64,000 bases of DNA from an uncultured Oscillospiraceae bacterium (GTDB taxonomy: Bacteria; Bacillota; Clostridia; Oscillospirales; Ruminococcaceae): NCBI GenBank assembly GCA_934462925.1, contig CAKSIT010000014.1, forward strand, positions 1 through 64,000, given 5' to 3'. Below are positions 48,113 through 58,032 of the stretch, in pieces. The position numbers and the translations under genes are program-made. The notes under the pieces are model-generated. The model did not search any database and had not been told where the DNA came from. It worked only from the letters and a program-made list of their open reading frames with translations. Every line of letters starts with the position of its first letter. The first letter of the stretch is position 1.

Positions 48113-49204
48113 TTAATTCTCGTTAAGGGTGCGCTCGTCGCAGTACTCGCAGATAAGCATATCGCCGTATTTTTTGAAGCTGTGCGGGAGGTAAAGCTCG
48201 GTCTGCGTAATGCACTTGGGGTTCGGGCAGGAAACCTTGCTGTGAACCACGCCCTTAAGCAGCGGGCGCTTCGGCGGCTGGCTTTCAAGAGTTGTCAGTA
48301 TAAGCGCCATGCGCACGAACATACCGTTGTTCGCCTGTCTGAAATACGCCGCCCTCGGGTCGTCGTCAACCGCGACTTCTATCTCGTTTACGCGGGGCAG
48401 GGGGTGCATTACTATCATGTCCTTGCGCGCGAACTGCATTTTATCGGTTGTAAGGCGATAGATGTTCTTCTGGCGCTCGTACTCGTCCGCGTCGGTGAAG
48501 CGCTCGCGCTGAATACGCGTCATGTAGAGCATATCGAGCTGTGGCAGCACCTCGTCTATCGTCTTTACCTCGCGGAACTCGCAGCCGCGCGCGGTCAGAA
48601 TTTCCTTGACATAGGACGGCAGCGCAAGGCTTTCGGTCGAGATGAGGATAAACCTGTTGTTCGGGTAGCAAGAAAGCGCTTTAAGAAGCGAATGCACGGT
48701 GCGCCCGTACTTAAGGTCGCCGCAAAGCCCCACGGTAAGCCCCTCGAGCCTGCCAAGCTCGGTTTTCAGCGTAAGCAGGTCGGTAAGCGTTTGGGTCGGG
48801 TGGAGGTGTCCGCCGTCGCCCGCGTTTATCACGGGGCAGTCCGCGCAGAGCGAAGCGGCTTTTGCCGCGCCCTCCTGCGAATGGCGCATAACCAGCACGT
48901 CGGAGTAGGTGCTGACTATCTTTACGGTGTCCTTAAGGTTCTCGCCCTTTGACACAGAGGAGTTGCCGGGGTTGTCAAACCCGATTATGCTTCCGCCAAG
49001 ACGCAGCATTGCGGCTTGAAAGCTCATCTGCGTGCGTGTGGACGGCTCGTAGAAAAGGGTCGCCATTATCTTGCCCTTGCACTTGTCCGCGTAGCTTTCG
49101 GGGCGGCGCTTTATGTCCTCCGCGAGAGTTATTATGGAGTTCCAGCGTGACACGGAGTAGTCGTCCATGTCAATGAGATGGTTGTAATACATACTTGCTG
49201 TCAC
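48113..49204 (-). CDS. pyrB: Aspartate carbamoyltransferase fused to a PyrI-type zinc domain
   Basis: A 363-residue protein. Residues 1-310 are a complete catalytic chain: FYEPSTRTQMSFQ (carbamoyl-phosphate loop), GDGGHLHPTQTLTDL, GDLKYGRTVHSL and MHPLPRVNEI. It condenses carbamoyl phosphate and aspartate in pyrimidine synthesis. The last ~45 residues add four Cys (SCPNPKC near 323-328, ICEYC near 352-356) in the spacing of the PyrI zinc domain, but the PyrI allosteric nucleotide domain is absent. No pyrI or other pyr gene is adjacent. The start has AAGGTGACAG. Confidence 0.92.
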   Translation of the reverse strand: MTASMYYNHLIDMDDYSVSRWNSIITLAEDIKRRPESYADKCKGKIMATLFYEPSTRTQMSFQAAMLRLGGSIIGFDNPGNSSVSKGENLKDTVKIVSTYSDVLVMRHSQEGAAKAASLCADCPVINAGDGGHLHPTQTLTDLLTLKTELGRLEGLTVGLCGDLKYGRTVHSLLKALSCYPNNRFILISTESLALPSYVKEILTARGCEFREVKTIDEVLPQLDMLYMTRIQRERFTDADEYERQKNIYRLTTDKMQFARKDMIVMHPLPRVNEIEVAVDDDPRAAYFRQANNGMFVRMALILTTLESQPPKRPLLKGVVHSKVSCPNPKCITQTELYLPHSFKKYGDMLICEYCDERTLNEN

Positions 49205-49309: not shown

Positions 49310-50389
49310 ATGATAGACCGACACACAGCCTTTGAGAGATTCCGCGCAGAGCGCAGCGCAGAGCTTGCCGCCGCGGTTGACATAACCCCGTGCGGCATAA
49401 CGATTACATATTACGACCTGCGCCTGTCACGAAGCGTATCCCGCGCCATATTTCAGGGCGAGGCTGTAAGCGCGCAGAACGTCGCGCAGCTTCTTGGCAG
49501 GGCGTTTTCCGCGGCGGGGCGGGAGCTTGGCGTAAACGCCGCCGCAATAAAGTCGGTGGGATTTGCAGCGCCCGTGCATATTTCCGCGTTCATTGAGGAC
49601 GCGCTTTCGGCGCAGGAGCTGTTTTTGCGCCCCGAAACGCACCTGTTCGTTATGCCGTACATAAGCGCGGGAATCAGCGGGCGCTTTACGGCGGCGCTGC
49701 TCACCCTGCCCGAGGGCGAGTGCTGCGCGGCGGAGCTTGCCGACTCGCTGTGCGTGGCTCACGTTGGCGGGGGAGAGGTGCGCTGCGCTTCGTTCGGGCT
49801 GTGCGGCGCATTCTCCGCAAGCGGGCTTGAAAGCGGAATGCTCCACGCGGCGGGCGCTGTGGATTCGGTAACGCGCGAGCATGACGGCACGCTTTGCTAC
49901 AGCGTGTCGGGCGATACGGACGGCGTGGGGCTTTCGGCGGCGGGGGCGGCAATGGCGCTCAGGGTAATGCTTGACGAGGGAATAATCGACGCGGACGGCA
50001 TAATGACGGACCGCGATATGCTCTATATTGGCGAGGACATATTCGTGTCGCAGCGCGATGTAAGAGCGTTCCAGTCGGACAGGGCGCGCTGCGCGGCGGC
50101 GCTCGAGGTGTTTTCGCGGCGCTATGGCGGGCGGTTCTATTTTTCGGGCGAGCCGTTCACGCGGGAGGGCTTTGCGGCGCTGCTTGCAACGGGCGTTATA
50201 CCGGAGGAGCTGCGCGGTGCGGGCTTCGCGCAGGGCGCTGTAACGTCGGGAATAATCCGCTGCTTTGACCCCGCCGAGTACGAACGCGCCGAAAGGCTCG
50301 CCGCAGGGGCGCTCGACGTCACCGAGGAGCTTGCGCGCGAGGTTGGGGAGCTGTATTACGAGCGGTTGGCGTTTCCCGAAAAGGGTTGA
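49310..50389 (+). CDS. RACo-like ASKHA-fold protein (DUF4445-like), no ferredoxin domain
   Basis: A 359-residue protein resembling the C-terminal ATPase part of corrinoid-protein reductive activators: VDITPCGITITYYDL, GFAAPVHISAFIEDALS, FVMPYISAGISGRFTAALL, GLCGAFSASGLESG, and VSQRDVRAFQSDRARCAAAL. The N-terminal [2Fe-2S] domain of RACo is missing. No corrinoid or methyltransferase gene is nearby. It could be an orphan activator or have another ATP-dependent role. The start follows TAGGAGAAAA. A terminator lies at 50428-50456. Confidence 0.65.
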   Translation: MIDRHTAFERFRAERSAELAAAVDITPCGITITYYDLRLSRSVSRAIFQGEAVSAQNVAQLLGRAFSAAGRELGVNAAAIKSVGFAAPVHISAFIEDALSAQELFLRPETHLFVMPYISAGISGRFTAALLTLPEGECCAAELADSLCVAHVGGGEVRCASFGLCGAFSASGLESGMLHAAGAVDSVTREHDGTLCYSVSGDTDGVGLSAAGAAMALRVMLDEGIIDADGIMTDRDMLYIGEDIFVSQRDVRAFQSDRARCAAALEVFSRRYGGRFYFSGEPFTREGFAALLATGVIPEELRGAGFAQGAVTSGIIRCFDPAEYERAERLAAGALDVTEELAREVGELYYERLAFPEKG

Positions 50390-50456: not shown

Positions 50457-50565
50457 TGTAAAAATTTCTGCGGCAATGTCAGAAATCCGTTTTTTGAGTT
50501 GTCTTATTATACAGAAACGGCAAAGAGGCGCGGGGCGCTTCAAAAAAAGGAAAGGTCGTGATTTC

Positions 50566-51054
50566 TTGATTTATATTACGCCGCAGGCGCTGGAGGAGCT
50601 GTTCAGCGCGCACGCAGACATGGTGTTCAGGATAGCGCTGAACATCGTAAAGAACCGCGAGGAAGCGCAGGACATTGTTATGGACGTGTTCTCCGCGCTG
50701 CTTAAGGGCGGCAGCTTTAAAGACGCGGAGCATATAAAGGCGTGGCTTATACGCACAGCGGAGAACAAGTCGCTTAACGTGCTTAAATCGTCGCGGATAA
50801 GGCGGAGCATTCCCCTTGACGAAATGTTGGCGGGAACGCTTCGCTCGCCGCTTACGGGCGGAGAGTTTGAGGTGCTGGACATTGTAATGCGCCTGCCCGA
50901 AAAGCTGCGAACAACGGTTTATATGTTCTACTTTGAGGATATGCCCGCCGCGCAGATAGCGCAGACGCTCGGCATAAGTGAAAACACGGTATACAAGCGC
51001 CTTGAACGCGGGCGCACGGTGCTGAAAATAAGTCTGGAGGGTGACGCGATATGA
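50566..51054 (+). CDS. ECF-type RNA polymerase sigma factor
   Basis: A 162-residue sigma-70 family ECF factor. Region 2 is HADMVFRIALNIVKNREEAQDIVMDVFSALL and WLIRTAENKSLNVLKS. Region 4 is MRLPEKLRTTVYMFYFEDMPAAQIAQTLGISENTVYKRLERGR. It redirects RNA polymerase to a regulon, probably under control of the overlapping membrane protein. TTG at 50566 with AAGGAAAGG upstream is the best start; the longer frame has an unlikely N-terminus. The stop overlaps the next ATG. Confidence 0.88.
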   Translation: MIYITPQALEELFSAHADMVFRIALNIVKNREEAQDIVMDVFSALLKGGSFKDAEHIKAWLIRTAENKSLNVLKSSRIRRSIPLDEMLAGTLRSPLTGGEFEVLDIVMRLPEKLRTTVYMFYFEDMPAAQIAQTLGISENTVYKRLERGRTVLKISLEGDAI

Positions 51055-54000
51055 ATAAGGCAGAATTTAAGTCGGCATACGGTAAAATTGCGCTCTCCGA
51101 CGAGTTCAAGTCGGCGGCGCTTGAAAAGCTCCGCGCAATGGCGCAGGGCGAGCAGACAGGGCAGGGCGAACAGGAACACGCGGATATCCCCGAGGTACGT
51201 CCCAAGGAGATAACCGTTCCCAAAACGCGCCGTGCGCCGTGGAAGATAGCGGCGGGCGCAGGTGCGGCAGCCGCAGCGGTGGCGCTTGCGGTGTGGGGCG
51301 GAACGTATCTCGCGCGCAACGCCGACATTATAGACCCGAACGAGGTGCAGACCGAGGAAAATCTCCCCGAACCCGAAAGCCCGGAGTATTACCGCGCGAT
51401 ATCGGGCGCTGTGGGAACGCTCTTTTTCACAAGCGACGGTAAGACCACGGAGTACCCCGAGCATACGGCGGAAGCGACGCATACGCTTTCTGAAGTAAGC
51501 TGCATTCTGAACATTACCGCCACGCTTGATTTTGTGACGGGCGAGGGCGACCTGATGACGCGCGGCGGCACGCTGTGGACGGAGTATTCCACCGCGAACG
51601 GGCGTTTTATCGTGAACAGCGGCGAATGCGGCGAGGGCGAGGTTGAGTATATTGCCCTGCCCGACGGCAAGGTGATTGCGCCATATTCCTGCACGCCGTC
51701 CGAAATTATAAGCTCGCAGGACTACTTTGTGCAGAACTGCCTGTCGCCCGCATATACGAGCGTGTCGCTCTGCGAGGAGCGCGTTGACGGCAGGGCGTAC
51801 TACAGCGCGGCGTGGACGGCTGAGAGCGGCGCGAATAATATAATAACCGCCGAGGGGCTTACCGAGGACGAAATGGCGGGCGTTATAAGCTATTTCATGT
51901 ACGGCGCGGCGGCGCTCCCCGAGAGCTTCGGCGAGGGCGGCACGGGCGTTCACGCGGAGGAAATAAAAACGGGCTACGGCACGCTTACCGTAAACGAGCT
52001 TGCAGCCCGCCCCGCAGACCTTGTTTCCTACAGGGGCGAGGTGAAGTACGCTAACGAGGAGGACAACGAGAACTATCTTGCGCTTTCGAGCGACGAAAAG
52101 CTCGACTTCTATATTGAGAATTACAATATACCGATAACAGGTTCAAATAGCCTTGAATGCTACGTCCGTGAGAGCGACGACACCGAGATATACAAGATTC
52201 AGTTCGAGGGCGCAGGCGCTGACGCGGGCAAGGCTGTCGAGATAAGCGTGCTTCGCGGGGACTACCGCGAGAGCCGCCGCGGATATTGCGCGGCAACAAG
52301 CGAAATGAGCGTTTTCCGCGGGACTGAGGTGCTGTTCTCGGGCAGCGAAGCGGCTGAAACGTACCTTGCGGAATGGCGCGACAACTGGGGGAATTACATG
52401 AACCTCACCGCAAAGGGGCTTACGGCTGAGCAGATGTCGTACCTGCTGGCGCAGCTTGTGGAAGAAAAGGCTGAAGTTTACCCCGACGCGGCGGAGAGCG
52501 TTCAGACGCCCTATGGTACGGTGAACCTCTACGACTTCTCGCCGAGCTATAACGCGGGCGTTCCCGTTGTGTACAACCGCGAATACGTGCCGTGGCAGGC
52601 TGCGGAGTTCATCGGCAGCGATGTGCTGAACGGGTTTGAAGTGCCGTTTGAAACGGTCGGCTATTCGCTTGAATATGCGGCTGTATACTACAATTTCGAC
52701 TTTGACAAGCTGCGAAGTCAGGGGCTTGACGAAGTTTCGGCGATGTACTATGACGAGAATCTTGGCGTATTCATCTCTGATAAATGCCCCGCGTTCAGCG
52801 GCAAGTCTGGTACGCGCGAGGTTGCGGCGTTCTACAACGAAGATTCGGGCGACAAGAGCGTTGCGGTTTACGCTATTTCGGGTTCGGCGGACAACAGCAT
52901 TTACGGCGGGCTGCCGCAGTCGCGTGAGCTTGAAATGGCTGACACGCGCTTCGACACAGCGAACGATTGCAGCTGCATTTATTTCGGCAGGAACGAGGGC
53001 GACTACTACGCGATATTCAAGAATAACACGCTCGGAATAATCTTTGTCGCGCACTCGCAGAACCTTGACCTTGACGAGTTCGCGGGCGTGGTTAATAAGC
53101 TGTACAACGCTGAGCCGTACTACTATTCCGACGAAAACGGCGATATCAGCTACAGCTATAACACGCAGCGCGCGCAGATAGAATACGGCGTGAAGCTTGA
53201 CGGGCAGGAGTATTCCCCCCGCAGCGAATACGCGGCGTTTGGCGGCACAGCCGCAGAAGCAGCCGAGCGCGCAGCGGAGCTTACGGGCTTTGAGGGCGTA
53301 ACGTACCTTGGCGATGTAAACGAAATGGACGTGCGCGCCGCAAAGGGAATGTCGCTTGACGCTAATACAAGCGTGCTGCTGGACGACGGCTCGTTCATAA
53401 GCCTGCACTACACGGGCGTTGGCAGGGAGCTTTACATTAACTTTGCAGACGACCCGCACCTGTACGATTCGCGGCGCGTTACCGACATGAGCGGCAAAAG
53501 CTGGCTTATTGAGGGCGGCGACAGCGGCGCGTGCGTGATACCGTCAAAGGCTCAGGCGGAGGGGCTTGACTTTACGAGCGGCGCAGAACCAACAAACAAT
53601 ACGTGGCTTGGCGGTAAGGCGGCGGACGGCACGGCGTATTACGAGGCCTTCCGCAGAACGAGCGGCGACCCGTCGGCGGCGCTGTTCATCACGGTAAGCG
53701 CAAAGGGCATGACACCGCGCGAGTTCGCGGACGTAATGACGGTGCTTATACAGGCGTTCCCGCTTGACGACAGCGAGGTTTACACGGTAAGCGAAACGGC
53801 GGACACCGCGCACGGCGCGCTTGTGATAAACAGCGGCAGCTACTACGGCACGGGCGGCGGCTACATGGCGGACGTTATGGGATACGAACCCGGCGAGTAT
53901 GACAAGAGCGGCAGGGTCATGATGTACACAGAGGACGACATGAAAGCGTTCAGCGGCGTTGACGTAAGCGCGCTTGAAGTACCGTTCAACGCGCAGCTCA

Positions 54001-54530
54001 GGGCGCTTTCCTACTACGCTAACTATGCGGAGTTTCACGACGGCTACAACATACAGCTGTTCCACACGGGGAAGCCGCTTGAGGGCGAGGCGGACGACGA
54101 GGCGTTCCGCGAGGCGCAGAAGTATTTCACGGGAAGCGTGTACTGCTACGACAAAACGGCGTATTTCGACAATAAAACCGCAACAATGAGAAGCTACACG
54201 CTGAATCTCTGCGACGCGGACAATTACGTTGACTGCACGCAGACCGTAAGCATAAACGTGCTTGAGGGCGACTTCTCCGAGCGGTACTTTGGCTCGTGCT
54301 TCGCGGAGCTTGACCCGCAGGCGAGCGAGGGCTTCTGCGCAGATTACCTTGAAGCAAACCGCGAGGCGTTTGAAACGGGCAGCTTAAGCCGCGTGTACGT
54401 CTGCTATGACAAGGAAACGCAGACAATGTATGGCGGCTTCATAAAGAACGGGCTGCACTTCACCCTGCAAACAAGCGGTCTTACAACAGAGCAATTCGCC
54501 GACATAATGGCGCAGCTTTATACGGCATAA
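51051..54530 (+). CDS. Giant membrane-anchored repeat protein, putative anti-sigma sensor
   Basis: A 1159-residue protein. Residues 1-60 are cytoplasmic and could hold the sigma factor, one helix lies at about 63-83, and ~1075 residues are outside. The outer part has about five degenerate units, each ending in G(L/M)T..(E/Q)(M/F)...(M/L)..L (near residues 268, 455, 671, 885, 1143). Several open with (Y/H)GTL-V-like strands (YGTLTVNEL, YGTVNLYDF, HGALVINSG). It overlaps the ECF sigma gene by 4 bp. Anti-sigma function is inferred from this coupling and topology; no zinc anti-sigma motif is seen. Ligand unknown. Confidence 0.75.
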   Translation: MNKAEFKSAYGKIALSDEFKSAALEKLRAMAQGEQTGQGEQEHADIPEVRPKEITVPKTRRAPWKIAAGAGAAAAAVALAVWGGTYLARNADIIDPNEVQTEENLPEPESPEYYRAISGAVGTLFFTSDGKTTEYPEHTAEATHTLSEVSCILNITATLDFVTGEGDLMTRGGTLWTEYSTANGRFIVNSGECGEGEVEYIALPDGKVIAPYSCTPSEIISSQDYFVQNCLSPAYTSVSLCEERVDGRAYYSAAWTAESGANNIITAEGLTEDEMAGVISYFMYGAAALPESFGEGGTGVHAEEIKTGYGTLTVNELAARPADLVSYRGEVKYANEEDNENYLALSSDEKLDFYIENYNIPITGSNSLECYVRESDDTEIYKIQFEGAGADAGKAVEISVLRGDYRESRRGYCAATSEMSVFRGTEVLFSGSEAAETYLAEWRDNWGNYMNLTAKGLTAEQMSYLLAQLVEEKAEVYPDAAESVQTPYGTVNLYDFSPSYNAGVPVVYNREYVPWQAAEFIGSDVLNGFEVPFETVGYSLEYAAVYYNFDFDKLRSQGLDEVSAMYYDENLGVFISDKCPAFSGKSGTREVAAFYNEDSGDKSVAVYAISGSADNSIYGGLPQSRELEMADTRFDTANDCSCIYFGRNEGDYYAIFKNNTLGIIFVAHSQNLDLDEFAGVVNKLYNAEPYYYSDENGDISYSYNTQRAQIEYGVKLDGQEYSPRSEYAAFGGTAAEAAERAAELTGFEGVTYLGDVNEMDVRAAKGMSLDANTSVLLDDGSFISLHYTGVGRELYINFADDPHLYDSRRVTDMSGKSWLIEGGDSGACVIPSKAQAEGLDFTSGAEPTNNTWLGGKAADGTAYYEAFRRTSGDPSAALFITVSAKGMTPREFADVMTVLIQAFPLDDSEVYTVSETADTAHGALVINSGSYYGTGGGYMADVMGYEPGEYDKSGRVMMYTEDDMKAFSGVDVSALEVPFNAQLRALSYYANYAEFHDGYNIQLFHTGKPLEGEADDEAFREAQKYFTGSVYCYDKTAYFDNKTATMRSYTLNLCDADNYVDCTQTVSINVLEGDFSERYFGSCFAELDPQASEGFCADYLEANREAFETGSLSRVYVCYDKETQTMYGGFIKNGLHFTLQTSGLTTEQFADIMAQLYTA

Positions 54531-54632: not shown

Positions 54633-55547
54633 TTACTTTTCGGGGGACATAAGGCGAACCATAACCGCCTTCTGCGCGTGGAGTCTGTTCTCAGCCTCGT
54701 CGAAAATCTCGACGGCGTGCTGCTCGAACACCTTTGCGGTGATTTCCTCCTCGCGGTGAGCGGGCAGGCAATGCAGCACGATAGCGTCGCTCTTTGCAGA
54801 AGCCATAACGGCGTCGTTTATCTGGTAGCTTGTGAATACCGCCTTGCGCTTTTCCGCTTCGCCCTCCTGTCCCATGGAAGCCCACACGTCGGTGTAAACC
54901 GCGTCAGCGTCAGCCGCCGCTTCAACAGGGTTCTGCACAATGCTGAACTTGCCGGGGTACTGCGCGGCAAAGTCAAGCACCTGCTTGTCGGGGTAGTAGC
55001 CCTCGGGGCAGGCAAGCGAAACGCTCATGCCGACTTTAAGCGCGCCTACGGTGAGGGAGTTCGCCATGTTGTTGCCGTCGCCGATATAGCAGAACTTAAG
55101 CCCCTCGAGCTTGTTCTTGTACTCGCGAATGGTCTGCAGGTCTGCAAGCACCTGGCAGGGGTGGCAGAAGTCCGTAAGGCCGTTGATTATCGGGATAGTG
55201 CCGTACTCGGCGAGGTTCTCGACTTCCTTCTGCTCAAAGGTACGTATCATTATACCGTTGAGGTAGCGCGAGAGAACGCGCGCGGTGTCCTGCACAGGCT
55301 CGCCGCGGCCTATCTGCAGGTCGCGCGAGGAGAGGAACAGCGCCTGTCCGCCGAGCTGGTACATACCCGTTTCAAAGGAAACGCGCGTTCTTGTCGAGGA
55401 CTTCTGGAATATCATGCCGAGGGTCATTCCGCGCAGAATATTGTGGGGAATGCCGTGCTTCTGCTCGTATTTGAGCTGGTCGGCAAGGTTGAGAATGTCG
55501 ATAATCTCCTCGGTGCTGAGGTCGAGAAGCTTAAGCAGATGTTTCAT
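54633..55547 (-). CDS. argF: Ornithine carbamoyltransferase
   Basis: A 304-residue OTC with the carbamoyl-phosphate loop SSTRTRVSFETG, NGLTDFCHPCQVLADL, ornithine loop and catalytic HCLPAHR. It makes citrulline from ornithine and carbamoyl phosphate. It is the last gene of the minus-strand arginine cluster. The start follows GAAAGGAA. Anabolic rather than catabolic use is inferred from the neighbours. Confidence 0.96.
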   Translation of the reverse strand: MKHLLKLLDLSTEEIIDILNLADQLKYEQKHGIPHNILRGMTLGMIFQKSSTRTRVSFETGMYQLGGQALFLSSRDLQIGRGEPVQDTARVLSRYLNGIMIRTFEQKEVENLAEYGTIPIINGLTDFCHPCQVLADLQTIREYKNKLEGLKFCYIGDGNNMANSLTVGALKVGMSVSLACPEGYYPDKQVLDFAAQYPGKFSIVQNPVEAAADADAVYTDVWASMGQEGEAEKRKAVFTSYQINDAVMASAKSDAIVLHCLPAHREEEITAKVFEQHAVEIFDEAENRLHAQKAVMVRLMSPEK

Positions 55548-55580
55548 AGCTATTGATTCCTTTCGTTACGTAATTATTCC

Positions 55581-55982
55581 TTAAACCTTTGTGGACTGAA
55601 CAACAAAGTAAGTATACACAGCGGGAAAGAGGATAATGAGAATATCGCCGATGTTGAAGTTATGCTTAAAGCTGAAAAAGAGCGATATTACAGCGAGCAG
55701 GGTAACGCATATGCCCGAAATGAACGCGGGCTTGCGCGCGCTTTCCTTGTTCATGACGGTAAGCTGGATACCGAACCACCCCATTGCCGCGAACGCGAGC
55801 GCCGTGACAATAAGCGCGAGAATGTTGCCGATAAAGCCCATAAAGCTGCCGCTTGTGATTGTTGAAAATATAGCGAAGCCTATGAAATAGCCGCGTCCGA
55901 AAAGCACCCTGAAATTAAGTATTACCATTATTGCCGCAATAAGCAGGCTGATAACGGAGATTATCTGCGTGATTTTCTTCAT
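55581..55982 (-). CDS. Small membrane protein between argD and argF
   Basis: A 133-residue protein with four hydrophobic helices (about 4-22, 25-42, 50-72, 85-125 in two parts). The family is not recognised. The start at 55982 follows AAAGGCGG; an upstream extension into argD is unlikely. It lies 13 bp after argD and 33 bp before argF, so it is co-transcribed with arginine genes. A link to transport is possible but unsupported. Confidence 0.7.
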   Translation of the reverse strand: MKKITQIISVISLLIAAIMVILNFRVLFGRGYFIGFAIFSTITSGSFMGFIGNILALIVTALAFAAMGWFGIQLTVMNKESARKPAFISGICVTLLAVISLFFSFKHNFNIGDILIILFPAVYTYFVVQSTKV

Positions 55983-55995
55983 GATACCGCCTTTC

Positions 55996-57165
55996 TCAGC
56001 CGTTGAGCAGGTCAAGCAATATTGCAAGTCCCTTGTCAATTTCCTCGTAGGTTATGGTAAGCGGCGGCAGAAGCCTTACGCGCGTTTTGGCTGTAAGCAG
56101 CAGCAGCCCCTTGTCGAGAGCCGCCTTTACAATATCGCCCGCTTTTTTCGTCTTAAGCTCAATGCCTATCATAAGCCCAAGACCGCTTACTTCCGATACC
56201 TCGGGGCTTGTAAGCAGCTTTTCGCGGATATAAGCGCCCTTTTTCGCAGCCTCGTCAAGGAAGCCCTCTGCAAGCACCGTGTCAAGCACAGCAAGTCCGC
56301 CCGCGCAGGAAATAGGGTTGCCGCCGAACGTAGAGCCGTGCGTTCCCGCGGTGAGAACGCGTGCGCATTTCTCGCCCGAAAGGCACACGCCAATAGGCAC
56401 GCCGCCCGCCAGTCCCTTTGCAAGGGTGGTGAGGTCCGCCTTTTTTCCGTAGTGGTCGCCCGCAAGCAGCCTGCCCGTCCTGCCGACGCCCGTCTGTACC
56501 TCGTCGGCAATGGTAAGCACGTCCTTTTCAGCGCACAGGCGGAATATCTCGTCAACAAACGCGGGGTCGAGCGCCATTACGCCGCCCTCGCCCTGCACGT
56601 ACTCAAACATTACCGCGCAGACCGTGTCGTCGAGCTTTGCGCGCAGGTCGTCGATGTTGTTGGCTTCAACGTTGATAAAGCCCTCTACGAACGGGAAGAA
56701 GTAGTTGTGGAAAACGTCCTGACCCGTTGCGGAAAGCGTGCAGAGCGTTCTGCCGTGGAATGAGTTTACAAGGGTAATTATGTTGTGCCTGCCCTTGCCG
56801 TATTTGTCAAAGCTGTACTTGCGCGCTATCTTTATCGCGCACTCGTTGGCTTCCGCGCCGCTGTTGCCAAAGAACATATCGGTGTAGCCCGCAGCCTCGC
56901 AAAGGCGCTTTGCAAAGTCTGCCTGTACCTTTGTGTAGTAGTAGTTTGAGGTGTGCTGGATTTTGTGCGCCTGCTCGCATACGGCGTTCACCCACGCTTC
57001 GTTGCAGTAGCCAAGCGAGTTTGTGCCGATGCCCGAGCCGAAGTCGATGTACTCCCTGCCGTCCTCGTCGTGCGCGGTGCGGCCGCTGCCGCTTTCAAGC
57101 ACAAGGTCGTACCTGCCGTAGGACGGCATAACGTATTCGTTGAACTGTTCTATAGTCTTGCTCAT
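55996..57165 (-). CDS. argD: Acetylornithine aminotransferase
   Basis: A 389-residue class III PLP aminotransferase with the cofactor-binding FFGNSGAEANECAIK, the Asp in TIADEVQTGVGRTG and Schiff-base Lys in TTLAKGLAGGVPIG. It converts N-acetylglutamate semialdehyde to N-acetylornithine using glutamate. The start follows AAAGGAGG. argB lies upstream by 12 bp. Confidence 0.95.
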   Translation of the reverse strand: MSKTIEQFNEYVMPSYGRYDLVLESGSGRTAHDEDGREYIDFGSGIGTNSLGYCNEAWVNAVCEQAHKIQHTSNYYYTKVQADFAKRLCEAAGYTDMFFGNSGAEANECAIKIARKYSFDKYGKGRHNIITLVNSFHGRTLCTLSATGQDVFHNYFFPFVEGFINVEANNIDDLRAKLDDTVCAVMFEYVQGEGGVMALDPAFVDEIFRLCAEKDVLTIADEVQTGVGRTGRLLAGDHYGKKADLTTLAKGLAGGVPIGVCLSGEKCARVLTAGTHGSTFGGNPISCAGGLAVLDTVLAEGFLDEAAKKGAYIREKLLTSPEVSEVSGLGLMIGIELKTKKAGDIVKAALDKGLLLLTAKTRVRLLPPLTITYEEIDKGLAILLDLLNG

Positions 57166-57177
57166 GCCGCGCCTCCT

Positions 57178-58032
57178 TTACGGTACTATCATCGTGCCTG
57201 CGCCGACGTTCGTCAGCAGCTCTATAAGTATTGAATGCGGTATCCTGCCGTCTATTATGCTTGTATGCGGAACGCCGCGCCTTACCGCTTCAACGCAGCA
57301 CTCAATCTTCGGAATCATGCCGCCCGAGATTATGCCTTGTTTTTTGAGGTAGGGAACATAGCTTACGCCCACCTCGCGGATAAGCGTGGAATCGTCGTCC
57401 TTGTTTTCAAGCAGGCCGCGTATGTCGGTAAGCAGAATGAGGTTCGCGGCTTTCATCTCCGCTGCGATACGCGCCGCTGCGGTGTCGGCGTTAATGTTGA
57501 ACACTGTGCCGTCCTTTCCGCGCGCCACTGTTGAGATAACAGGAATATAGCCGTTGCTGAGCGAATCGAAGATGATTTTGGGGTTCACCTGCGTTATGTC
57601 GCCCACAAAGCCAAGGTCGGGGTTGAGCATCTGCGCCTCGATAAGATTGCCGTCAAGTCCGCATAAGCCCACGGCCTTGCCGCCGCGGCTTTCCAACAGG
57701 GAAACAAGGTCCTTGTTGACCTTACCCGCAAGCACCATCTGCACAATGTCGATAGTTTCCTCGTCGGTATAGCGCAGGCCGTTCACAAACTTGCTTTCCT
57801 TGCCCGTTTTCTTAAGCATGGCGTTTATCTCAGGGCCGCCGCCGTGAACCAGTACCACCTTGATACCGACAAGCGACAAAAGCACTATGTCCTCCATGAC
57901 GGCCTGCTTTAGTTCCTCGTTCGTCATGGCGTTGCCGCCGTATTTCACGACCACTACCTTGCCGTTGTATTCCTGCAGGTAGGGCAGAGCCTCTATCATA
58001 ACGTGGGCTCTTACATCGTAATCTATATTCAT
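57178..58032 (-). CDS. argB: Acetylglutamate kinase
   Basis: A 284-residue amino acid kinase: VVVKYGGNAM (phosphate-binding Lys), VLVHGGGPEINAML, GLCGLDGNLIEA and NINADTAAARIA. It phosphorylates N-acetylglutamate. An N-terminal extension before the catalytic core (about 20 residues) suggests the arginine-inhibited hexameric type, which is inference. The start follows GGAAAGAGGAAG. Confidence 0.95.
   Translation of the reverse strand: MNIDYDVRAHVMIEALPYLQEYNGKVVVVKYGGNAMTNEELKQAVMEDIVLLSLVGIKVVLVHGGGPEINAMLKKTGKESKFVNGLRYTDEETIDIVQMVLAGKVNKDLVSLLESRGGKAVGLCGLDGNLIEAQMLNPDLGFVGDITQVNPKIIFDSLSNGYIPVISTVARGKDGTVFNINADTAAARIAAEMKAANLILLTDIRGLLENKDDDSTLIREVGVSYVPYLKKQGIISGGMIPKIECCVEAVRRGVPHTSIIDGRIPHSILIELLTNVGAGTMIVP

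Follow-up and report, generated by a model that had tools for sequence, protein, structure and literature searches.

ECF (extracytoplasmic function) sigma switches are a major route by which bacteria sense their surface, and few of the signals are known. Among the closest described systems, as excerpts of the corresponding papers present them, RsiV binds lysozyme in the active-site pocket and is then degraded by regulated proteolysis (PMC5014341), and RsgI proteins share one plan but differ in their sensor domains (PMC12203970). In this report we focused on a gene pair at positions 50,566 to 54,530 of a 64,000-nucleotide stretch of DNA (the window) from an uncultured Oscillospiraceae bacterium (contig CAKSIT010000014.1), in which an ECF sigma factor gene overlaps the gene for a very large membrane protein, P0001. 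It is quite probable that this pair is an autoregulated sigma/anti-sigma operon with a five-domain sensor, proteolytic release, and an exchangeable ectodomain. The foundation of this proposal is sequence based—the gene pair, N-terminal homology, topology from hydropathy, five units, variation in unit number, ectodomain exchange, and a promoter element—and from it we infer inhibition, ligand sensing, proteolytic release, and autoregulation.

The sigma factor and its giant partner

The gene pair and the membrane-proximal features of P0001 are as follows.
50566..51054, + strand: ECF sigma factor, 162 aa, TTG start (Pfam Sigma70_r4_2 4.9e-14, Sigma70_r2 7.6e-10)
51051..51054, + strand: ATGA, in which the sigma stop overlaps the partner start (partner ATG at 51051, sigma frame end at 51054)
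51051..54530, + strand: P0001, proposed giant one-helix anti-sigma factor, 1159 aa (frame reading; 12 database relatives)
51051..51146, + strand: putative cytoplasmic sigma-binding (anti-sigma) domain, residues 1-32 (N-terminal profile E 9e-10; two predicted helices)
51246..51302, + strand: single transmembrane segment, residues 66-84, preceded by RRAPWK (hydropathy maximum)

The first gene encodes a bona fide ECF sigma factor, a short protein with sigma-70 regions 2 and 4, both above the Pfam cut-off, which scores 72.6 bits against TIGR02937 from NCBIfam (cut-off 42.9). Its TTG start fits the orthologue at locus L002, which also has 162 residues, with an ATG at that place. The original prediction, made from the letters of this DNA, had claimed a 4-bp overlap with a giant 1159-residue one-helix membrane protein, which the coordinates, the reading frame, and the hydropathy profile bear out.

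The anti-sigma reading of P0001 is strongly supported by its N terminus. When residues 1-75 of 29 surveyed sigma partners were made into a profile, with L018 (the same locus as L002) excluded, P0001 matched it at E 9e-10 and its 12 relatives as well as L018 at 8e-8 to 2e-12, the best value among 500 shuffled N termini being 0.028. Helices are predicted at residues 3-11 and 17-31, at low model confidence, and residues 66-84 form the only marked hydrophobic segment (Kyte–Doolittle (KD) value 1.69; next best stretch elsewhere 1.12). Together, profile and segment support a sigma-binding domain inside the cell and about 1070 residues outside. P0001 thus has what is generally expected of an ECF anti-sigma factor, namely an N-terminal domain common to other sigma partners followed by one helix, and a gene adjoining its cognate ECF sigma gene. 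Pfam gave no match for a class I or class II anti-sigma domain, the N-terminal helices being of low confidence, and in NCBIfam a generic anti-sigma model scored best, far under its cut-off.

Pairing of such sigma genes with a membrane-bound partner is recurrent. Two genome contigs were found directly, L001, which is cut by the contig end, and L002, from an Oscillospiraceae metagenome-assembled genome of water-deer caecum; the L002 sigma gene (65% identity) overlaps by 4 bases a 1387-codon frame, whose match to P0001 is limited to residues 1-95. In a first survey, the window sigma was compared with 297 genomes from the L002 family, 198 of which had a match at E <=1e-12, and 30 loci among the best matches, L002 included, were searched for a partner from 40 bases before to 90 after the sigma stop, with starts set by rule and gaps therefore approximate. 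All 30 have a frame of at least 195 codons starting 35 bases before to 3 after the sigma stop, and 27 of these partners have a hydrophobic segment above threshold. A second survey, in the genus to which L001 and L002 belong, found matches in 14 of 43 genomes and yielded 23 loci, 20 fetched from listed places plus L002, L012, and L013. A sigma gene with an adjacent partner is present at 20 of the 23; the sigma was not found at L102 and L103, and at L105 none is adjacent. Homologues are thus regularly paired with a sigma gene, where their never being so would have spoken against the original prediction.

The size contrast drawn there, usual anti-sigma proteins having 150-450 residues, fits the first survey, in which 26 partners are complete with 195-481 codons (the other four run off the locus), but not the second, in which 14 of the 20 partners (the nearest relatives' genus supplying most of the pairs) exceed 850 residues. 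Giant partners also accompany other sigma classes (938-1365 residues; L093-L098, L104, L012), as do smaller ones of 424-705 residues (L099, L100, L101, L013). In one such class (L096, L097, L098, L012), the giant partners have 1291-1365 residues and an N terminus that looks different.

The ectodomain: five units and their exchange

The ectodomain can be divided into five units (U1 to U5).
51348..51926, + strand: unit 1, residues 100-292, boundaries approximate (unit profile comparison, unit-end motif)
51936..52490, + strand: unit 2, residues 296-480 (unit profiles, unit-end motif, fold matches)
52491..53126, + strand: unit 3, residues 481-692 (unit profiles, unit-end motif, fold matches)
53127..53768, + strand: unit 4, residues 693-906 (unit profiles, unit-end motif)
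53769..54527, + strand: unit 5, residues 907-1159 (unit profiles, unit-end motif, structure model, fold matches)

When the alignment was cut into these units and profiles were compared with one another, using reversed and 15 shuffled profiles as controls, all ten pairs beat the reversed profile and nine beat all 15 shuffles. This argues for the internal repeat that the original prediction had made a condition of its reading. The likeness it had singled out, that of units 2 and 5, is indeed the strongest of the ten (hhalign 96%, 81 columns, 30% identity), and the U3-U5 alignment spans 199 columns (hhalign 80%). Identity between units is 16-32% over the aligned parts. Half of the pairs (U1-U2, U1-U3, U1-U5, U3-U4, U4-U5) can be aligned only in the final 30-44 residues, which makes the unit ends the clearest part of the repeat. 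For one pair, U2-U4, 1 of 15 shuffles reached the score. The motif [GN][LM][TD]..[EQ][MF] occurs five times in P0001, at 269, 456, 671, 886, and 1143 (2000 shuffles: mean 0.0115, maximum 1), and the narrower G[LM]T..[EQ][MF] four times (shuffle mean 0.0035), both motifs having been picked after the sequence had been seen. Of the earlier description, in which each unit ends in G(L/M)T..(E/Q)(M/F)...L, the five repeated ends stand, but the literal form with its L fits only the unit end at 456, and unit 3 reads NLDLDEF.

The number of ectodomain units is variable among relatives, as judged from unit-end counts. The 12 database relatives, known as proteins alone, comprise eight found with the whole protein, none added by an alignment search, and four more found with residues 840-1159; P0010 dropped out of the alignment search and is likewise absent from that with residues 840-1159. 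The seven full-length ones have 1156-1164 aa and 45-94% identity, the five shorter ones 922-1031 aa. A unit-end profile (last 45 residues), trained on P0001 and P0006-P0010 (P0011-P0014 and the loci being outside the training set), was run on 30 proteins, three near-identical long relatives being omitted. P0001 and all four of the further long relatives scanned have five copies; P0010 has four; P0011, L088, and L089 have three; P0012-P0014 have two; and L096 and L097 have a single weak one each, against 2 matches in 600 shuffled proteins. There is no copy in the remaining 16 of the 30, including L092, though BLAST relates L092 to the U4-U5 part.

At eight loci with an orthologous sigma factor (64.8-68.5% identity, for L086 over 124 residues only), every partner has the 4-base overlap and matches the N-terminal profile (E 2e-5 to 2e-11), with lengths of 1209, 1218, 1033, 1034, 612, 851, and 1387 residues and one of at least 557 at a contig end. 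The L086 sigma, near 983-1357, reads as 124 codons only in that assembly. The ectodomains fall into sets: those of L088, L089, and L092 are related in sequence to the U4-U5 part, and those of L002, L086, L087, and L091 share sequence among themselves, with no relation to the P0001 units detected; the L090 ectodomain has parts in common with L087 and L100. One sigma switch with quite different outer parts in relatives suggests that the sensed signal has been swapped in evolution.

These data also bear on the possible, if rather unlikely, alternative that P0001 is an anti-sigma factor whose repeats mainly give length through a thick wall, with only the end unit or units sensing, which would leave the anti-sigma core as proposed. 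Unit 5 with unit 4, the part farthest from the membrane, is the most widely conserved part of the ectodomain and is common to all 12 relatives, the membrane-proximal part being lost or replaced in P0010-P0014, and unit number varies with protein length. However, a U5-like stretch lies mid-protein in L088 and L089 (419-628 and 422-618, respectively), and the units are strongly diverged, unlike typical spacer repeats.

The units are probably of the RseB-C-terminal/PsbP type (RseB/MucB C-terminal domain or Mog1/PsbP-like fold), a tentative fold assignment: units 2, 3, and 5 have their matches within a single fold set, and the model of unit 5 (residues 908-1159) has a pLDDT of 81.4 and a pTM of 0.82. 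P0001 has no Pfam match and no match to a ligand-binding family in Pfam or NCBIfam. In an hmmscan up to E 10 of all nine aligned members, in which HMMER filters remove most matches above E 0.1, a single member gave the one match, to the mannose-binding module PAW (E 0.053); this is too weak to count, and its direction agrees with the earlier idea of a polymer signal. The C terminus of L012 (1365 residues, of another sigma class) matches the DL-endopeptidase inhibitor IseA at 1212-1361 (E 1.7e-6, 28.5 bits, cut-off 29.9), with a very weak second case at L014 (E 0.065). Two of 10 scanned partners, at L029 and L040, have an Ig-like Big_14 domain in the ectodomain. The PAW and IseA matches are weak hints that point in different directions. 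It is possible, from the L012 clue, that some giant receptors sense wall hydrolases. The corresponding alternative for P0001, in which the signal would be a cell-wall hydrolase or the integrity of the wall instead of a polymer or nutrient, is compatible with the proposed operon and would have a precedent in RsiV binding the lysozyme active-site pocket (PMC5014341, in excerpt), but we consider it unlikely, since no IseA-type match was found in P0001 or the scanned relatives, L012 belongs to a different sigma class, and the one weak Pfam match of the family is to a mannose-binding module. Of the original interpretation, three points stand: the ECF sigma factor has a very large partner with one helix, the ectodomain of that partner consists of several units, and related proteins recurrently pair with sigma genes. 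Sensing of a polymer or of multiple ligands, its further suggestion, is a possibility.

Promoter element and proposed mechanism

A search for a promoter motif, which had been suggested with the original prediction, gave a matching element upstream of the window sigma and in relatives.
50477..50505, + strand: putative ECF-type autoregulatory promoter, TGTCAGA (-35, 50477-50483), 15-base spacer, TTGTCTT (-10, 50499-50505)

On either strand of the window, nothing else matches the pattern that this element shares with L002. An exact scan of eight related genomes with TGTCAGRW-N14-WYGTNWT gave 22 matches, compared with 2 for the reversed pattern; seven are directly upstream of an orthologous sigma, 10 lie within other open reading frames (ORFs), and five are elsewhere. 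The pattern was derived from several of the scanned loci, which are hence not independent tests; the L091 element was found by the scan. At L092 the longest frame taken by the script spans the element, and the eighth orthologue, L087, has a one-base variant read from the sequence, AGTCAGA, at equal spacing. A similar element with a 15-base spacer, and with no other spacer length from 12 to 18, is present in 10 of 28 wider relatives (shuffle mean 0.005). Upstream of the sigma genes at L024, L027-L029, L031-L033, L039, L040, and L046, it reads TG(C/A)A(A/T)(T/A)A-15-(T/C)(T/C)GTAT(T/A). A conserved element at fixed spacing upstream of sigma suggests that the operon is autoregulated via 50477-50505, and yields no regulon. 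The gene ahead of the operon (49310-50389) has a weak RACo_C_ter (ASKHA domain) match just under the cut-off, and by eye only, the flanks (48113-49204 and 54633-58032) hold genes that resemble aspartate carbamoyltransferase and arginine-biosynthesis genes, on the opposite strand.

In the mechanism that we propose, the N-terminal helices of P0001 would hold the sigma factor at the membrane, and the string of outer domains would act as the sensor. When a ligand from the surface or cell wall binds, or a bound ligand is lost, the membrane-adjacent outer stretch would become open to proteolysis; the anti-sigma would be degraded, and the freed sigma would first raise its own operon. Ligand-triggered proteolysis is the most likely release mechanism by analogy, because in RsiV the ectodomain is itself the receptor, and its binding of the ligand sets off proteolysis. 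Evolution would retain sigma, N-terminal domain, and promoter while ectodomain units are replaced, added, or removed, fitting the switch to different signals. That the partner is instead a co-expressed surface protein or a positive sigma co-factor is very improbable: no named anti-sigma domain was found in P0001 or nine aligned members and its inhibitory role is deduced, but what recurs across the survey, an N-terminal motif and one helix ahead of ectodomains unrelated to one another, is how a sigma-binding domain is expected to look.

Orthologous switches with equal core and promoter and differing ectodomains are a natural domain-swap experiment, in which transmitting and sensing parts are separable, and the conserved promoter is a ready reporter for a signal search. 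More tentatively, P0001 might represent a tandem sensor array, with five fused domains of the RseB-C-terminal kind in a Clostridia-type anti-sigma factor, in which domain gain, loss, and exchange re-target a fixed core, within a repertoire of giant ECF receptors in one genus.

Comparison with known anti-sigma systems

Excerpts of the literature highlight similarities and differences with three described systems, a fourth close one being RseB/MucB with RseA/MucA (sigma-E/AlgU). CnrY-type class II anti-sigma domains are short two-helix sigma-binding domains (PMC7406223), to which the two low-confidence N-terminal helices of P0001 are likened by description only. RsiV, like the DUF4179 proteins of ECF30, is the partner of a Firmicutes ECF sigma factor, with a cytoplasmic N terminus, one helix, and a receptor ectodomain (PMC5014341, PMC6066255), and models for sigma C and SigV are among the better matches of the window sigma, below their cut-offs. 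However, RsiV has about 285 residues with DUF4163 and DUF3298, and P0001 does not belong to the RsiV/DUF4179 group, DUF4179, DUF4163, and DUF3298 being unmatched in Pfam, as in all nine aligned members. RsgI from cellulolytic clostridia resembles P0001 in its N-terminal sigma-binding domain, one helix, and divergent C-terminal sensors, and in having several paralogues per genome and a usually autoregulated sigma operon (PMC12203970, PMC6056542). The differences are that neither an RsgI domain nor a carbohydrate-binding module passed the threshold in Pfam scans of P0001 and nine aligned members, and that P0001 is paired not with SigI but with an ECF sigma factor that has region 4, which places P0001 outside the RsgI family. 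By analogy, the overall logic is nevertheless RsgI-like, a sigma-binding part combined with exchangeable sensors.
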